DNA of 59,614 bases. Origin: Candidatus Aenigmatarchaeota archaeon (lineage in GTDB: Archaea > Aenigmatarchaeota > Aenigmatarchaeia > QMZS01). Made by a program: the position numbers and the translations under genes. The stretch covers positions 1-59,614 of the forward strand of contig JAFGCN010000003.1 of the NCBI GenBank assembly GCA_016932615.1, given 5' to 3'. Below the pieces are notes generated by a model. That model worked only from the letters and a program-made list of their open reading frames with translations, was not told the DNA's origin and ran no database searches. Shown piece after piece: positions 15,279 through 47,382 of the stretch (position 1 is its first letter; each line of letters opens with the position of its first letter).

Positions 15279-16397
15279 TTAATCTTCGGAATACTCAGAA
15301 TATTCATCAATTATTGAGTCATTCATGTGTTCTAGTTTCTTTTCTTTTGACAGTTCAATAACGGAATCATAGGAGATAAATGAACATACTTCGGAAAGTG
15401 GGTTTTCCCCCATAAGTACAAAGACTGGCCTAGTGATTTGCTTAAAGACAGCTTCTCTACGTTCAACGGGCGCAACTATGTGAATCCTTATATTGAGCAT
15501 TGGTTGTAAGGCCAACAAGTCTGCCATCCTCAGTATCCCAGAGTATATTGATGTGGTATCTTCTACTTCAAAAGCTCTTACTATTGAGCGCCTCTTTATC
15601 CATAAAACATCTATATTCCGAATCGTCTTTAACGTAGTTTCGTCAAATACTAGTGGAAGGTCCTGCAAGAGAGTATCTTCATCTTTTGGCTTCCAAATAC
15701 CCAAAACTCGTGCTCTGTCTCCGTTTGGAAGCCAAAGTTTTAAGCCAAGTTTTTCTCCAATTTCAGCAAGCTTGGCTTGGACTACAATAGAAGTCCGTTT
15801 TTCCTTTTCGGCAACTTCCCTTTCTGTTTCTTCCATCCCTTCATCATCGGGGACAGAAACTGAAACTTCTTTTTCATCACTTATCCTAATTTTATGAGTC
15901 TTTAACTTCTTTTGTTCATCTTCGCTGAAAGCAAAGTTTTCAAGATTTTTTGATTGAGCCAACAACTCTTTCTCTAAGAATTCACAATCCTTTTTTGGCC
16001 ATGCGCGAGGACTTGAAAAGACCATATATGTCCACTTGTTACTGTCATTGCTCAAATCTTTTGTGAACGATAAATTTTTCCATAGGCGGTCATTATGAAT
16101 GGGTATGGCCTTTTCAAGAGGCAACCACACTACGGGCTTGACCTTAAATCTTAGTACAAATGGGTCTTTTTCCTTGGTAAATATGGGTTTATCCTCTTGA
16201 TAGGGCTCACTCTGAACTTCAAGGACTCCCACAAATCTCTGAATTCTCGTTACATAGCAGATAAATTTATCGCCTGGACCTATCTTTTGGTTTTGAACAT
16301 AAGCCCTCCTAGAGATTCTAAAGCCACTCACATCTCTCATAGAATTTTCAAAGGCCTGTGCAGTTTCTGGAGAAAAGAGGTCTATATAGTAGTTCAT
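15279..16397 (-). CDS. EVE domain - PD-(D/E)XK-like nuclease fusion (probable modified-DNA restriction)
   Basis: 372 residues from the ATG at 16397. A longer reading starts at 16535, but a strong TATA box on this strand (16413-16424) and the family's usual start MNYYIDLFSPET favour 16397. Residues 1-140 form an EVE domain (PUA-like; binds modified cytosines) with GDKFICYVT and WVG-type strand VGVLEV. After a charged linker, the C-terminal domain has IDVLWI and AFEVEDTTSIYSG (about 262-285), resembling the D...ExE core of restriction-endonuclease-fold proteins in which Lys is displaced. Base composition is more AT-rich than the neighbours. Confidence 0.75.
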   Translation of the reverse strand: MNYYIDLFSPETAQAFENSMRDVSGFRISRRAYVQNQKIGPGDKFICYVTRIQRFVGVLEVQSEPYQEDKPIFTKEKDPFVLRFKVKPVVWLPLEKAIPIHNDRLWKNLSFTKDLSNDSNKWTYMVFSSPRAWPKKDCEFLEKELLAQSKNLENFAFSEDEQKKLKTHKIRISDEKEVSVSVPDDEGMEETEREVAEKEKRTSIVVQAKLAEIGEKLGLKLWLPNGDRARVLGIWKPKDEDTLLQDLPLVFDETTLKTIRNIDVLWIKRRSIVRAFEVEDTTSIYSGILRMADLLALQPMLNIRIHIVAPVERREAVFKQITRPVFVLMGENPLSEVCSFISYDSVIELSKEKKLEHMNDSIIDEYSEYSED

Positions 16398-16412
16398 AAT
16401 ATGATGGGGGTC

Positions 16413-16424
16413 TGATTTATATAA
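16413..16424 (-). promoter_or_regulatory. TATA box for EVE-nuclease gene
   Basis: On the minus strand the sequence reads ATATTATATAAA, about 16-27 bases upstream of the ATG at 16397. It decides the start codon: the upstream in-frame ATG at 16535 would lie before this promoter. Confidence 0.6.
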
Positions 16425-16592
16425 TATGGGTAGTAGTCCGCCGCCCAAGTAATATGTTGTATAACACCAATTACCCGAACGAAACATTCGCTTTACCCAC
16501 CCAAATCTGCTATAAAGCGAATATGGCTCCTGCAATATATAGCACAGGTGTTGAGTAATACTTATGGGATTTTGCTATCTGGATTATTTCGA

Positions 16593-40909: not shown

Positions 40910-42736
40910 TTATAATAGCCTAATGTGATCTTTTTTAGTTAAGGGATAGCCAAAAATTAGTCCTTCATCACTTAACCTTTTGATAAGTTTTTCTAAGTTC
41001 TCAATATTGCTTTCGTTTGCTTTTTTGGAAAGTTCTTCAAGAGATACCTCCTTTCCGGGGTCGTTTTTTTCTAAGGATTTTATTAAATCGAAGAGCTTAC
41101 TTAGATTAGAACGGGATTCTGAAGCTACGGGTTCGGGTGCTTTAGCTTCAAAGTTAAATCTCAGGTCTCTTAGATAGGCATTTACAATTCTAATGGCCCT
41201 CCTAGTATCTTCCTCTTCTACTTTGCAGGATAATCTGGCTCTGGCTGAAGCTTCAGAAAGCTTGTGCAGAGTTTCGGTTATTCTCAAGGGATTTAGCCAT
41301 TCGGGAGTTAGGTATTCTTGAAGTGGAATTTTTTTACTTAATCCTTCGCAGAACGCTCCAAGTTGTTTTTGGCGCTCTTCAGTAAACTCAAGAATTCGTA
41401 TATTTGTTTTTGAGTATCTGAGGTATTCCTCTAATTTCTCCTTTTTCAACATATCTTCTTGTTCAGGAGGAGTGGAAGTATCGTTAACCTTTAATTCTCT
41501 TTTAATAAAAATCAGATCAAACAGGGGGGCTAGGTCTTTGAATATTAGTTGTTCATCCAAGGATACATAGTCTGAGATTACACCTCGTCTAGGATATGCA
41601 CACACAATCACTCCAAAATTACCTTCATACCCCATAGTGAATTCCAGAAGTTCCCTTAGTTTTTTGTCTTGTTGGAATTCATCGAAAATTACGGTCCAAG
41701 GTTTTTCTTCTTCGAATTTTTTTCCTATGGCATTTGTGGTGGCTATCAGTGGAATCTCGTAGGTCTTTGGTAAGTTGCTTTGGATATTTTTTAAGAGTGA
41801 GGTTTTTCCTGTGCCAGGATTACCTACGATGAGTATCTTTATATTCCCTTGGAGAATATTTCCATCCTTGCTCTGCTTAGTTATCCCCCCAAAAGAGAGT
41901 AATAATAACGCTTCTGCCAGTTCCTTATAATCCCTGGCACAAGGCATGATTCTTTCTGAAAGCTTTTCAAAGAAATTTGGGGTTTTTGATAGTTCTTGAA
42001 AGTGCTCATATTGTTTGGGGTTCTTGACCACCGCAGGTTCAGTTTCTTCACCTTCAATAGAGTTTACTTCAAAAACGAGGTTAGGCTGATATAGGTTGTC
42101 CTCTGGGAGTCTTTTCAATTCCATTAAGATTCCATTTACCCTTAGGGAATTGCCTGCTTTCATCCTAGAATGTACCTCTGGATTCGATAGGGGTTCATTA
42201 AATCTTAGCTCTAGTTTTTGCTTGGTTTCTGGATCAGAAATAATTATTCTAAACTGGTTCGTTTTTTTATTGTCCTTGATGGGTATATCTTTGAGGTTCT
42301 TGCAAATAGGACACGGTGCATATTCCAGTCGTTCCCTGAGTTGTTTTTGTTCGAAGAGATTGCCACAATTAGCGCATTCATGAATCGTTTTGGTAATTCT
42401 AATATGTATCTCAGAAACTTCAGAGATATATCCCCTTAAGGTCAAAAACTTGCCCAAGTGTTTCATTTTCATGTTTTTTAAGGTTACTTCTTGGCTTTTT
42501 GGGAGGTTCCTGAACTGTATTGCGGGCAGTCTTGGCAGGTCAAAGTCCTCGACAACTTCTCCAAAAAGCGCAATATATTCCTCAGGCGACTCCAGAAGCT
42601 TCTCTCCAATCTCCGGCGCAAACTTATCAAGGTCTGCGAAATTCACCACAAGCGGCTTTCCGTGAGTCGATGCAAATACCAGGGGGTCGTAGTACTCTGC
42701 CCTTATGAAATCGTATATCTGCTCTTTAAGTTCCAT
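40910..42736 (-). CDS. Degenerate MCM-family protein
   Basis: 608 residues. N-terminal MCM domain A (about 1-85), zinc ribbon C121-x2-C124...C142-x2-C145, OB fold, then an AAA+ core with Walker A GNPGTGKT (305-312) and Walker B-like VIFDEF, and a C-terminal winged helix (about 545-608). Unlike replicative MCMs it lacks the helix-2 insert, and the usual SRFDLIF arginine-finger motif reads APLFDLIF (403-410). Bases up to about 42480 are AT-rich, while the first 85 codons match the host composition. It may be a non-replicative paralogue or of mobile-element origin. Confidence 0.75.
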   Translation of the reverse strand: MELKEQIYDFIRAEYYDPLVFASTHGKPLVVNFADLDKFAPEIGEKLLESPEEYIALFGEVVEDFDLPRLPAIQFRNLPKSQEVTLKNMKMKHLGKFLTLRGYISEVSEIHIRITKTIHECANCGNLFEQKQLRERLEYAPCPICKNLKDIPIKDNKKTNQFRIIISDPETKQKLELRFNEPLSNPEVHSRMKAGNSLRVNGILMELKRLPEDNLYQPNLVFEVNSIEGEETEPAVVKNPKQYEHFQELSKTPNFFEKLSERIMPCARDYKELAEALLLLSFGGITKQSKDGNILQGNIKILIVGNPGTGKTSLLKNIQSNLPKTYEIPLIATTNAIGKKFEEEKPWTVIFDEFQQDKKLRELLEFTMGYEGNFGVIVCAYPRRGVISDYVSLDEQLIFKDLAPLFDLIFIKRELKVNDTSTPPEQEDMLKKEKLEEYLRYSKTNIRILEFTEERQKQLGAFCEGLSKKIPLQEYLTPEWLNPLRITETLHKLSEASARARLSCKVEEEDTRRAIRIVNAYLRDLRFNFEAKAPEPVASESRSNLSKLFDLIKSLEKNDPGKEVSLEELSKKANESNIENLEKLIKRLSDEGLIFGYPLTKKDHIRLL

Positions 42737-43733: not shown

Positions 43734-44333
43734 ATGGACGGTGATGTTGGAATGGTGATTGAGCTTAAGGGAGATTTTAAGGCCTACGAAGGCCCCTGGG
43801 AGGATATTTCAGACCTTTCCAGGTATTCAAAAAGGGCGCTTCGGGAGTTTGCTCCCAAGACAGGTTTGAGGGATAGAATTGCAAGGAGGGTTGCCGGCTA
43901 TGACGGTTCGCTTAGCAGTGAATTTTTAAGAGGCCTTGAAGTTCCAAAAAGAGGCCAGAGTTTTGAGGATTACAGGGCTTCATATTTCATAGATAAAGAC
44001 ATACCCTTAGGAATTAAGCAGTTCTCTTCGGTTCGGGATTCAGGCGCAAGCCTTTCCTGGGGGAGTGTATTGTCCTATGGAGAAATGGTGGAGATTATGG
44101 CTACCCAAATGAACGTGTTGCAGAATGGGGGTCGTGCTTCAGAGTTTCTTGAGCTAAACCCTGCAGATGCTTTTGTAAGCACTCTACAATTGAAAGAGGA
44201 TTCTTTGAGCATGGGTCTTAGTGGGACAGGCCCCTACAAAAAAACAGCCCTTGAAGTAGGGCACAAGATAGAAGAAAAAGCACGTGACCTGGATATGCGT
44301 ATTTTCAAGAGCCGGAAGCAGTATGGCTATTAG
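43734..44333 (+). CDS. Array family member 1, unknown function
   Basis: 199 residues, probably cotranscribed with the SPFH gene (5-base gap). It shares with the genes at 44445, 45529 and 46106 an N-terminal YxGxWExxSxLxR motif, a middle 'xxVPKRxxSFxDY' segment, and a C-terminal G-x-G-x-Y-x-x-T-A-x-x-V-x-x-I motif followed by a basic helix. LRDRIARRVAGY is nearly identical in member 2. No membrane segment or known domain. I recognise no described family. Confidence 0.65.
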   Translation: MDGDVGMVIELKGDFKAYEGPWEDISDLSRYSKRALREFAPKTGLRDRIARRVAGYDGSLSSEFLRGLEVPKRGQSFEDYRASYFIDKDIPLGIKQFSSVRDSGASLSWGSVLSYGEMVEIMATQMNVLQNGGRASEFLELNPADAFVSTLQLKEDSLSMGLSGTGPYKKTALEVGHKIEEKARDLDMRIFKSRKQYGY

Positions 44334-44343
44334 GAATTAGAGT

Positions 44344-44439
44344 ATGTCAGAAGCAAAAAATATGGGGGCACATTTGGGCGAACTTGAAATGTACAAGGCG
44401 CCACATTATCTTTGGGAACAGGTTAAGGTCTTAGAGTAA
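44344..44439 (+). pseudogene. Truncated array family member, 31 codons
   Basis: A short frame ATG 44344 to TAA 44437-44439 reads a polar start, then LEMYKAPHYLWEQVKVLE. It aligns with the family's YxGxWExxSxL start and then stops. It lies between members 1 and 2 in the same orientation, so it looks like a remnant of an extra copy, though a real 31-residue peptide cannot be excluded. Confidence 0.5.
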
Positions 44440-44444
44440 GCATT

Positions 44445-45014
44445 ATGGGGACAATCTTTAGTGGTTCGTACGGGGGTTCTTGGGAGGAGGTTTCAGAGCT
44501 CCCCAGAACTGCAAGTGGCGCCTTTAAGGAAATTACTCCTGGGACGAAATTAAGGGACAGGATTGCCAGAAAAGTTGCTGGTTATGAGTGTGCGCCCAGT
44601 TGGGCCTTTCAGGAAGGAATCGTCTATCCGGGTACAGACCAGAGCTTTAAGGCATATTCCATGTGTATGCCAAGGGTTGATGGCGGTACCATGGCAGGCC
44701 TTATCGTTAGCTTGACTCATCCAGGATTTGTACCAGCAAGAGGGCACTATTATATTGAGGGAGACTTGCCAAGTGTTTTTAATTTTTCCGTAATCAGGAA
44801 TGAGCCAAAACACCCTTTCCTATCAAGACCTTTCGGCTGTAGCCCCGGAGATACCTTACTGTACTCCCACAATATTGGCGAGGGTTTTTGCAACCTTCGG
44901 CTTATGGGAACCGGACCGTATGAAGAAACCGTTCGTAAGGTGGGCAGTTCGATAGCAGCAAAAGCAAGAGATTTGAGGTTGGATGACCTGGATGAGATAC
45001 CCCATCTGGGCTAA
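44445..45014 (+). CDS. Array family member 2, unknown function
   Basis: 189 residues. Starts MGTIFSGSYGGSWEEVSELPR, then LRDRIARKVAGYE as in member 1, SFKAY in the middle and GTGPYEETVRKVGSSIAAKA near the end. More cysteines than the others (five to six). No known domain; same strand as member 1 and six bases after the truncated copy. Confidence 0.65.
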   Translation: MGTIFSGSYGGSWEEVSELPRTASGAFKEITPGTKLRDRIARKVAGYECAPSWAFQEGIVYPGTDQSFKAYSMCMPRVDGGTMAGLIVSLTHPGFVPARGHYYIEGDLPSVFNFSVIRNEPKHPFLSRPFGCSPGDTLLYSHNIGEGFCNLRLMGTGPYEETVRKVGSSIAAKARDLRLDDLDEIPHLG

Positions 45015-45016
45015 TT

Positions 45017-45454
45017 TTAGGTCCTATTAATCACCGGCTTACTCCTGTAAGCTTTATAGTGTGGGTCTGGCTTTTTTGGGTCAAGTGGTTCCCAGATAAG
45101 TTTATAAGTTCCGCCGCTGGTTGTCAGGGTGGCTTCTTCAAACAGGAATCCTCTCTTGTCTTCAGGTATTGTGGTGTGCTTTAAGGGCACCACACCAATG
45201 CTTTCAACTTTTACTCCGGCCAGCTCTCCCAGTCCTTTTATGGGGGGTTCTTTTGGCGAGTAGGCGCTTGAAACATAGAAGCCATCAGCTGAACCCGGCA
45301 GTATTTCTGGTAGATTTGGGCATCTAAGGTAAAGTGAGGGGTTTTCATTGCCCTCTAGAATAAATCCGTGGTGGCTTTCGGTTGCGCCTACAATTCTTCC
45401 CACAAGTTCTTCTGGAATTTTGACATTACCCCATGAAATGCTTCGATATACCAT
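45017..45454 (-). CDS. Hypothetical protein
   Basis: 145 residues on the opposite strand inside the paralogue array; two bases separate its stop from member 2's stop. Beta-rich, soluble, with Pro- and Gly-rich loops; shares no motif with the array family. An AT-rich region with TATAAATATT-like sequence lies upstream at about 45465-45480. Confidence 0.55.
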   Translation of the reverse strand: MVYRSISWGNVKIPEELVGRIVGATESHHGFILEGNENPSLYLRCPNLPEILPGSADGFYVSSAYSPKEPPIKGLGELAGVKVESIGVVPLKHTTIPEDKRGFLFEEATLTTSGGTYKLIWEPLDPKKPDPHYKAYRSKPVINRT

Positions 45455-45528
45455 AAAGATAGTCTCTAAAATATTTATAACTTTGGGGTGGTTTATATCA
45501 TATTAATCGGCTTTATTAGCGTTTGGTG

Positions 45529-46077
45529 ATGTCATTTATGTTTGAGAAGAAACAAGAATTCTGGGGGACAGGCCTTGAGTGCAGGTTTGGAGGTGACTGG
45601 CAAAAGATGGCAACTTTGAGCAGAATAACTTATAATCAATTGGTCAAGGTGCTTCCCAGGATTCCCACCTACAGCGTTATTCATCCTGAACTGCTCCCGG
45701 GAAAGGTTGGTTCGCCAAGCTTCTTTCTTGAGGGCTACCTTGTACCCAAACGCGAGGAGAGTTTCAGTGATTATCAGGAACGCGCTGCAAATAACGGTCT
45801 GACTACTAGGGATGGTGTGGTCAGGTATATTGACTGCGCCTTTCACACAAACACCCGATTTCCTGCTTTGAAGTCTCGCCTTGGCAAGCCACCTATGGAC
45901 CATTTTTCCTTTCAGTCGGGCATCGGACCGGATAGGTTTGAGCTTAAGATAGAAGGGCTTGGAAATTACGCCCTGCCCGCAGGCCAGGTTGCTTCTGTTG
46001 TTATGAATAATGCCGAATTTGACCCTGGTGTCAAAATAACCTATTTGCGCCCTTCAGAAATGGCTCTTTTTTGCTGA
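45529..46077 (+). CDS. Array family member 3, unknown function
   Basis: 182 residues from the ATG at 45529 (TATA-like TATATTAATC about 25 bases upstream; the in-frame TTG at 45523 is rejected). FGGDWQKMATLSR, LVPKREESFSDYQ and GLGNYALPAGQVASVVM place it in the same family as the genes at 43734, 44445 and 46106. The middle differs, and a C-terminal basic helix is missing. No known domain. Confidence 0.6.
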   Translation: MSFMFEKKQEFWGTGLECRFGGDWQKMATLSRITYNQLVKVLPRIPTYSVIHPELLPGKVGSPSFFLEGYLVPKREESFSDYQERAANNGLTTRDGVVRYIDCAFHTNTRFPALKSRLGKPPMDHFSFQSGIGPDRFELKIEGLGNYALPAGQVASVVMNNAEFDPGVKITYLRPSEMALFC

Positions 46078-46105: not shown

Positions 46106-46672
46106 ATGGCAGGAATAGGTTCGGGAAAAGTAGGATTGCTTGCCTACAGGGGCTATTGGGAGAATGTTTCTGGTCTCGCAAGAGAGACTCGAGGTATTTT
46201 GGATAAGTATCGGAATGAAATGCCCCGGTATAGTATACAGAGTTCCAACTTTGGGCATCCATTTGTGATTGCGGCTGGCTTAAGTGAGAAAAATAAGGTA
46301 CCATTCCTTAAAGATTTAAGGGTGCCAGAAGAGGAGCAGAGTTTTAAGGTTTACTGTCTAAGTCTGGGTTTTGATCCGCCCAAGGGATCCAAGGGTGGGC
46401 TGACACAAGTAGACACTGGTGGAAATATTGAAGCCCTACTTGGTGGTTTTAAAGAGGTGGGAGAAGATGTAACTGTAGACCTGATGCGGGTTGGTCTTAG
46501 ATTGAGTCCAAAGCTCTATGAGACACTTCTTATTGGTTTTGGCAATTACGAATCGACCGCAGAAAAAATCGCTTCCGAAATTCTTGATGCAGCAAAAGAA
46601 AGGAATATGGAGCCACTTAAGATGAAGCGGTCTGGTGGGATTGGTCGGACACTGAGAGGTCTTTTTAATTGA
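46106..46672 (+). CDS. Array family member 4, unknown function
   Basis: 188 residues from the ATG at 46106; TATA-like TTTATTAATT at 46080-46089. YRGYWENVSGLAR, RVPEEEQSFKVYC and GFGNYESTAEKIASEILDAA carry the three family motifs. It has a basic C-terminus. The next gene's longest frame overlaps its stop, but that gene probably starts at 46711. Confidence 0.65.
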   Translation: MAGIGSGKVGLLAYRGYWENVSGLARETRGILDKYRNEMPRYSIQSSNFGHPFVIAAGLSEKNKVPFLKDLRVPEEEQSFKVYCLSLGFDPPKGSKGGLTQVDTGGNIEALLGGFKEVGEDVTVDLMRVGLRLSPKLYETLLIGFGNYESTAEKIASEILDAAKERNMEPLKMKRSGGIGRTLRGLFN

Positions 46673-46710
46673 GTGTTCGAAACAAAACTATTTTTACGCC
46701 CAGGTCTATT

Positions 46711-47382
46711 ATGGCCTACAAGCTTTCACCGTCTAGCTTATCCCTGATGGAGGATTGCCCAAGGTGCTTTTGGATTCACTTCAACAGGCACAAGCAGAGG
46801 CCGCAGGGGATTTTTCCGTCTCTGCCTTCGGGAATGGACAGGATTTTGAAGGAGCATTTTGACAGGTTCATGGAGCGGGGCGAGCTTCCGCCGGAACTCC
46901 GGGAAAACGGTAGCTGCAACGGATTTCGCCTCTTTGACAATAAGGGCCTTTTAAAAGTCTGGAGAAACAATTTCCGGGGGATTTCCTGGGCTGACAGCGA
47001 GGAAAACATCCTGCACGGGGCGGTCGATAACATCATGGTTAATGGAAATAAGCTTATAGTTCTTGACTACAAGACGCGGGGCTTTCCTTTGAAGGAGGAC
47101 ACGGCAGAGCACTACCGAAACCAGCTTGACCTGTACAATTTCCTGCTCCGGAAAAACGGGTTTGAAACTGAGGACTTTGCATTCCTTCTGTTTTATGTCC
47201 CAAGGGAGGTCCTTGACAGCGGCTCAGTTGTTTTCGACACGACTCTTGTCAGGATGAATGTAAGCGTGGAAAACGCGGCAAAGATCTGGAACCGCGCGAT
47301 TTCCCTCCTTAAAGGCCCCTGCCCGGAGAATGGGGGCGAGAAGGAATGCGAGTGGTGCCGGCTTCTGGAGGTACCCGACTGA
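46711..47382 (+). CDS. RecB/Cas4-like PD-(D/E)XK nuclease
   Basis: 223 residues from the ATG at 46711 (TATA-like CTATTTTTAC 22 bases upstream). The nuclease core has HGAVDNIMV and then IVLDYKTRG, the D...DYK of the PD-(D/E)XK fold, and a QLDLYNFLL helix typical of RecB/Cas4 relatives. A Cys near the start (CPRCFW) and a C-terminal C...CEWC could bind a 4Fe-4S cluster as in Cas4. No CRISPR array or cas genes lie in the window, so a repair role is more likely. Confidence 0.75.
   Translation: MAYKLSPSSLSLMEDCPRCFWIHFNRHKQRPQGIFPSLPSGMDRILKEHFDRFMERGELPPELRENGSCNGFRLFDNKGLLKVWRNNFRGISWADSEENILHGAVDNIMVNGNKLIVLDYKTRGFPLKEDTAEHYRNQLDLYNFLLRKNGFETEDFAFLLFYVPREVLDSGSVVFDTTLVRMNVSVENAAKIWNRAISLLKGPCPENGGEKECEWCRLLEVPD

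Follow-up and report, generated by a model that had tools for sequence, protein, structure and literature searches.

An apparently chimeric MCM paralog with the host's domain A and a reduced AAA+ motor in an Aenigmatarchaeota genome

The stretch of archaeal DNA analysed here (the window, 59,614 nucleotides, contig C3 of a Candidatus Aenigmatarchaeota genome of 1.26 Mb in 29 contigs, 97% complete) encodes an MCM paralog that looks chimeric: its subdomain A is nearly that of the canonical MCM of the same genome, and the rest is a strongly diverged body whose AAA+ motor lacks both pore hairpins and keeps its nucleotide-binding residues. Taken together, the identity profile, the trees, the shared residues and the base composition favour a recombination that joined the host's domain A to a body of foreign or very old origin; simple duplication is the less favoured history. 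The best reading, which we find plausible but tentative, is that of a chimeric, chromosomally encoded MCM without helicase function, which carries a host docking domain and acts as a non-motor accessory.

The open reading frame is intact, and its profile matches extend across the N-terminal tier, the P-loop and the lid. Against Pfam, MCM (59.8 bits), MCM_lid (30.4) and MCM_OB (25.8) each score above their cut-off, and MCM_N falls slightly below its own (23.6 for a cut-off of 24.9). The NCBIfam MCM model matches with an E-value of 5e-50, but at 170 bits for a cut-off of 940, and the best match in the PDB is an archaeal MCM (E-value 3.8e-35). Judged by these matches, homology to MCM is far above chance. 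The recognizable parts are a zinc ribbon, an OB fold, a P-loop core, a lid and a predicted winged helix, the AAA+ motor being reduced (Table 1). The domain A, zinc ribbon and OB fold announced by the original prediction are present; the winged helix that it also named is seen as a structural prediction.

Table 1. Position of the MCM paralog and of its parts in the window
Feature	Position in window	Strand	Observation
MCM paralog, whole gene, 608 aa	40910..42736	-	Open reading frame; profile and sequence matches
Domain A, aa 1-80	42497..42736	-	Identity with host canonical MCM: 73/80 aa, 205/240 nt; GC3 0.54, host-like
OB fold and zinc-binding part, aa 81-240	42017..42496	-	Diverged AT-rich body begins; identity break at codon 80/81
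Zinc ribbon, C121-x2-C124-x17-C142-x2-C145	42302..42376	-	4/4 Cys retained
Walker A, GNPGTGKT, aa 305-312	41801..41824	-	Lys311 retained; GDP replaced by GNP
Strand 2 and helix 2, aa 325-347	41696..41764	-	Site of helix-2 insert; 17 aa fewer than host
Walker B strand, aa 348-354	41675..41695	-	Asp352 and Glu353 retained
Helix 3/strand 4 junction, aa 362-375	41612..41653	-	Site of pre-sensor-1 beta-hairpin; 15 aa fewer than host
Sensor 1 strand, aa 376-383	41588..41611	-	Asn replaced by Tyr381
Arginine-finger motif, aa 404-407	41516..41527	-	SRFD replaced by PLFD
MCM AAA-lid, aa 433-520	41177..41440	-	Sensor-2 Arg485 retained
C-terminal region, predicted winged helix, aa 540-608	40913..41119	-	AF2 model

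A canonical MCM, which the original prediction had proposed to look for elsewhere in the genome, is indeed present (contig C11, 223-2214, 663 residues), and therefore the paralog need not be the replicative helicase. This canonical copy has the same domain order as the paralog and, unlike it, retains a GDPATAKS Walker A, the helix-2 insert, the pre-sensor-1 hairpin, the sensor-1 Asn and the SRF finger. From the Walker A Lys to the Walker B Asp, the paralog counts 41 residues (K311 to D352) where the host MCM has 58 (K320 to D378): the helix-2 insert, including the conserved WVLEAGALVL, is absent, whereas canonical comparators retain it. Between the Walker B Asp and sensor 1, the distance is 29 residues (D352 to Y381) instead of 44 (D378 to N422), and the beta-hairpin before sensor 1, the mark of the pre-sensor-1 hairpin superclade, is missing as well, a loss that had not been listed earlier. 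Sensor 1 itself has a Tyr where canonical MCMs have an Asn, and in the finger motif (P404-L405-F406-D407) Leu405 occupies the position of the arginine. This Asn and this Arg are each conserved in at least 95% of the 35 canonical MCMs that formed our reference set; at that threshold 71 columns are conserved, and in these the paralog has the conserved residue 32 times, another residue 27 times and a gap 12 times. Retained are Lys311 of Walker A, Asp352-Glu353 of Walker B (VIFDEF) and Arg485 of sensor 2. The departures first read by eye (GNPGTGKT and not GDPGxAKS in Walker A, no helix-2 insert, an altered sensor 1, PLF for SRF) thus all recur in the alignments, none of which contains an overlooked finger or insert. 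The term 'stripped-down', chosen at the time, fits the motor and is incomplete for the whole protein, which looks like a mosaic with the host's domain A, a feature that could not be recognized in the first reading.

An AF2 model of the paralog (pLDDT 75, pTM 0.51), computed from an alignment of 15 canonical MCM sequences, predicts a compact five-strand AAA+ core from which both the helix-2 insert and the pre-sensor-1 hairpin are absent: helix 2 is a single unbroken helix (334-344), and helix 3 (357-368) leads straight into the sensor-1 strand (375-380). The model aligns with the AAA+ part of PfMCM (4r7z) with a Z-score of 27.2 and an rmsd of 2.8 over 267 residues. This general likeness to MCM is partly built in, because the input alignment consisted of canonical MCMs; the missing insertions are not built in. 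Helices of the predicted winged helix lie at 540-558, 566-572 and 578-590. No solved structure was matched by the sequence of the paralog's unique core (residues 326-430).

The likeness of the two host proteins is confined to one end. Residues 1-80 of the paralog are identical to the host MCM at 73 of 80 positions and the remaining body at 145 of 521, and maximum likelihood places the change of identity between residues 80 and 81 (log-likelihood gain 61.8, Fisher p 2.7e-28). This point is the junction of subdomain A and the OB fold, and identity changes there abruptly, at codon 80/81, rather than gradually. GC3 is also lower past this breakpoint (0.35 in the body) than before it (0.54 in domain A); the window mean is 0.52 (SD 0.07). 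Family relatives have a domain A that is 49-57% identical to either copy, and their bodies mostly reach 58-74% identity with that of the host MCM; the body of the paralog is about 20-40% identical to every MCM compared, the host being no closer than other families. In the domain A tree, the paralog and the host copy are sisters with 99% support, joined by a path of 0.091 versus 1.27 to the next relative. In the body tree, the paralog is a branch of length 2.87 without kin (median 0.23), placed with the cellular set. Residues specific to the host MCM are found in the paralog at 22 of 25 sites of domain A and at 9 of 109 sites of the body; elsewhere, viral outgroups have 8-9% of them and family relatives 24-36%. 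Two technical causes were considered. An assembly artefact between the two mcm genes is rejected, since their domains A differ at 35 of 240 bases, mostly synonymously. A contig placed in the wrong bin is unlikely, given that a fused primase gene on it has family-level orthologs in all ten of the other family genomes.

Domain A has been constrained in both copies. Pairwise comparison of paralog and host gives dN 0.041, dS 0.90 and dN/dS 0.045 for this part, against a dN of 0.81 for the body. At residues 15, 21 and 35 (Y15, F21 and D35), the paralog has the state of the relatives or of the wider class, and it is the host copy that appears changed. Low dN/dS and these three residues together indicate purifying selection on both copies since the split.

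The paralog is an extra, degenerate MCM copy, and as such is of a known kind. Its closest precedent is MCM2 of Methanopyrus kandleri (mkaMCM2, PDB 3F8T), an inactive, internally deleted protein that has lost Walker A (PMC2933578). Both carry internal deletions; by the description of 3F8T, the paralog differs in combining them with an intact Walker A, Walker B and sensor 2, in lacking specifically both pore hairpins, and in having the domain A of the host MCM. Haloarchaeal outlier MCMs include N-terminal-only forms of 312-315 residues (PMC3972481). Like the paralog, they are additional to a replicative MCM and some are incapable of helicase function; unlike it, they have either a complete set of Walker A, Walker B and SRF or no ATPase part, and none is described as having an intact P-loop without pore hairpins. 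Archaeal plasmids and viruses repeatedly recruit MCM genes (PMC6972569), and their proteins (BLv36, HJTV-4, Altivir_8, the pT26-2 family and others) are divergent, often host-recruited homologs; those inspected keep the Walker A-B spacing and the hairpins, unlike the paralog, and in two plasmid copies the finger reads SQF. By comparison with these proteins, what appears notable in the paralog is the presence of intact nucleotide-binding residues without pore hairpins, together with a host-derived, selectively maintained domain A.

No relative with the reduced AAA+ core was found among the 156 genomes of the phylum or the 392 archaeal genomes searched, so that instead of a family of reduced MCMs we have a single known sequence with this core. 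The longer hits of the 392-genome search (G206, G226, G336, G353 and G103) are small-GTPase-like proteins and not MCMs. Scans of viral contigs gave canonical MCMs only, a scan of genome contigs gave two distant canonical MCMs, and inserts are kept in all the MCMs inspected from viral contigs (those with readable spacing), phages and plasmids. The two plasmid MCMs with an SQF finger are haloarchaeal (L098, 516-2576, and L100, 507-2588; Salinibaculum and Halorussus) and retain both inserts. Their Walker B is changed too (VIDNM and RLDDL), and from these motifs they are probably catalytically impaired; their fingers suggest that motor decay has also occurred elsewhere among extra MCM copies. A separate observation concerns ten genomes of the class (G011, G019, G022, G037, G041, G047, G051, G055, G085 and G089), in which the MCM open frames reach about 1040-1820 residues. 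In several of them the match ends at Walker A (query residue 308-309), which makes inteins at or near this motif likely.

What could such a protein do? Work on archaeal MCM shows that unwinding is lost when just one of two elements, the helix-2 insert or the pre-sensor-1 hairpin, is deleted, that almost every mutation of a residue in the active site eliminates ATPase activity, and that arginine finger and sensor 2 both function in trans (PMC4619765). Having lost both hairpins, the finger and sensor 1, the paralog should therefore not unwind DNA and is probably helicase-dead; the weak or dead helicase proposed by the original prediction thus gains stronger support than it had then. With finger and sensor 1 gone, its subunits could not complete the ATP site of a neighbour. 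In archaeal MCM from which the insert is deleted, binding to double-stranded DNA is much tighter (about 8 nM) and ATPase activity is raised (PMC4619765). By analogy with these published deletion mutants, the paralog may bind ATP and DNA and yet be unable to unwind.

In archaeal MCM, subdomain A forms a bundle at the periphery that is mobile; its position has been proposed to influence contacts with proteins and with DNA, and DNA binding is reduced when the subdomain is deleted (PMC4619765). Since the host-identical part of the paralog is this outward-facing subdomain, and not the ring interface or the motor, a partner is probably shared with the host MCM. Through subdomain A, the paralog would meet that partner, be it a loader, a GINS-type factor or DNA, and as a non-motor protein it would regulate MCM loading or activation or compete with it, a role that we also consider probable, if less firmly so than the loss of helicase function. 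A mixed, poisoned ring of paralog and host MCM is possible, with nothing particular in the diverged OB and AAA+ parts to favour it. The host genome has an Orc1/Cdc6 gene, and GINS was not detected there by a Pfam search that is insensitive, as it also missed GINS in three of four archaeal controls. The accessory reading can be made more specific: a cellular non-motor MCM, with a host docking domain under purifying selection, would use this domain to regulate or block the loading or activation of the replicative MCM, as a licensing-type regulator derived from a helicase paralog through recombination. In this full form we consider it unlikely. Control of archaeal MCM is generally ascribed to its loading and to the GINS and Cdc45/RecJ partners. 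If the paralog regulated the host ring, it would represent a layer of control of the archaeal DNA replication motor that is undescribed in the literature examined. With its host docking domain kept and only motor parts dropped, it would be a natural separation-of-function mutant, which singles out subdomain A as the portion required to fit host factors and offers a ready probe for the binding partners of this subdomain.

Other histories must be weighed against that of a chromosomal accessory protein. The gene could be the relic of a mobile element, or its domesticated replication protein: a plasmid or virus MCM would have recombined with the host mcm gene, taken the host domain A to recruit host factors, persisted as a chromosomal gene and lost its motor afterwards. 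We judge this somewhat unlikely. The recurrent recruitment of MCM genes by archaeal plasmids and viruses agrees with it, as do the AT-richness that starts exactly at the breakpoint and the finger loss in the two plasmid copies; moreover, the neighbouring dehydrogenase gene has no ortholog in ten family genomes, so that the locus itself is variable. However, no integrase, tRNA, viral hallmark gene, or att-like or flanking repeat was found in the neighbourhood searched, the body is not placed with viral MCMs in the tree, though the AU test leaves a placement with the outgroup standing (p 0.257), and both inserts are kept in every viral, phage and plasmid MCM inspected. The paralog may have any of the three roles initially offered (regulator, loader or mobile-element protein). 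Recombination is dispensed with altogether if a plain duplicate of the host mcm gene had a body that evolved very fast beside a constrained domain A. The dS of domain A allows for heavy change, and the dN of the body is of the same order; the AU test leaves standing a clade of body and host (p 0.064), and 7 of 40 family-specific residues occur in the body, at the upper end of the background range. What makes this quite unlikely is that the body resembles the viral outgroups in its share of host-specific residues and lies far below the family relatives, while domain A has nearly all of them, and that base composition shifts at the very codon where identity changes as a step.

Two further possibilities concern the state of the gene. 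Its long branch, AT-richness and lost motor residues might betray a decaying pseudogene whose frame is open by chance, but this is improbable in view of the 608 open codons and the low dN/dS of domain A, of the retention of the four zinc cysteines, the Walker Lys, the Asp-Glu pair and the sensor-2 Arg, and of a core that, in the model, stays compact and well-formed despite the loss of inserts. Conversely, intact Walker A, Walker B and sensor-2 Arg could serve an active DNA translocase with different pore loops and another residue acting in trans. This we regard as highly improbable: the strongly conserved sensor-1 Asn and finger Arg are both replaced, and both pore hairpins are absent, each of which is required for unwinding in the MCMs tested (PMC4619765).

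On one side of the paralog lies a gene for a 2-hydroxyacid dehydrogenase, the stop codons of the two genes abutting each other, and on the other side one for an SPFH protein. No direct repeats bound the gene, and homology upstream of its start codon is not significant (110 of 1000 shuffles were as good). The fused primase of the contig (51768-53207) joins small- and large-subunit domains in a 480-residue protein. At 43734-46077, several adjacent hypothetical genes for proteins of about 185-200 residues appear mutually related, with common motifs that include WEDISDLSR / WEEVSELPR and LRDRIARRVAGY / LRDRIARKVAGY; searches of Pfam and PHROG gave no match, and these look-alike genes may represent the local tandem expansion of a family without assignment in either database. 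At 46669-47379 is a PD-(D/E)XK (Cas4-like) nuclease, whose best PHROG match is a virus family of unknown function. Besides the MCM paralog, the window has one other strong outlier in composition, an EVE-domain protein at 15279-16535 (GC3 0.36).
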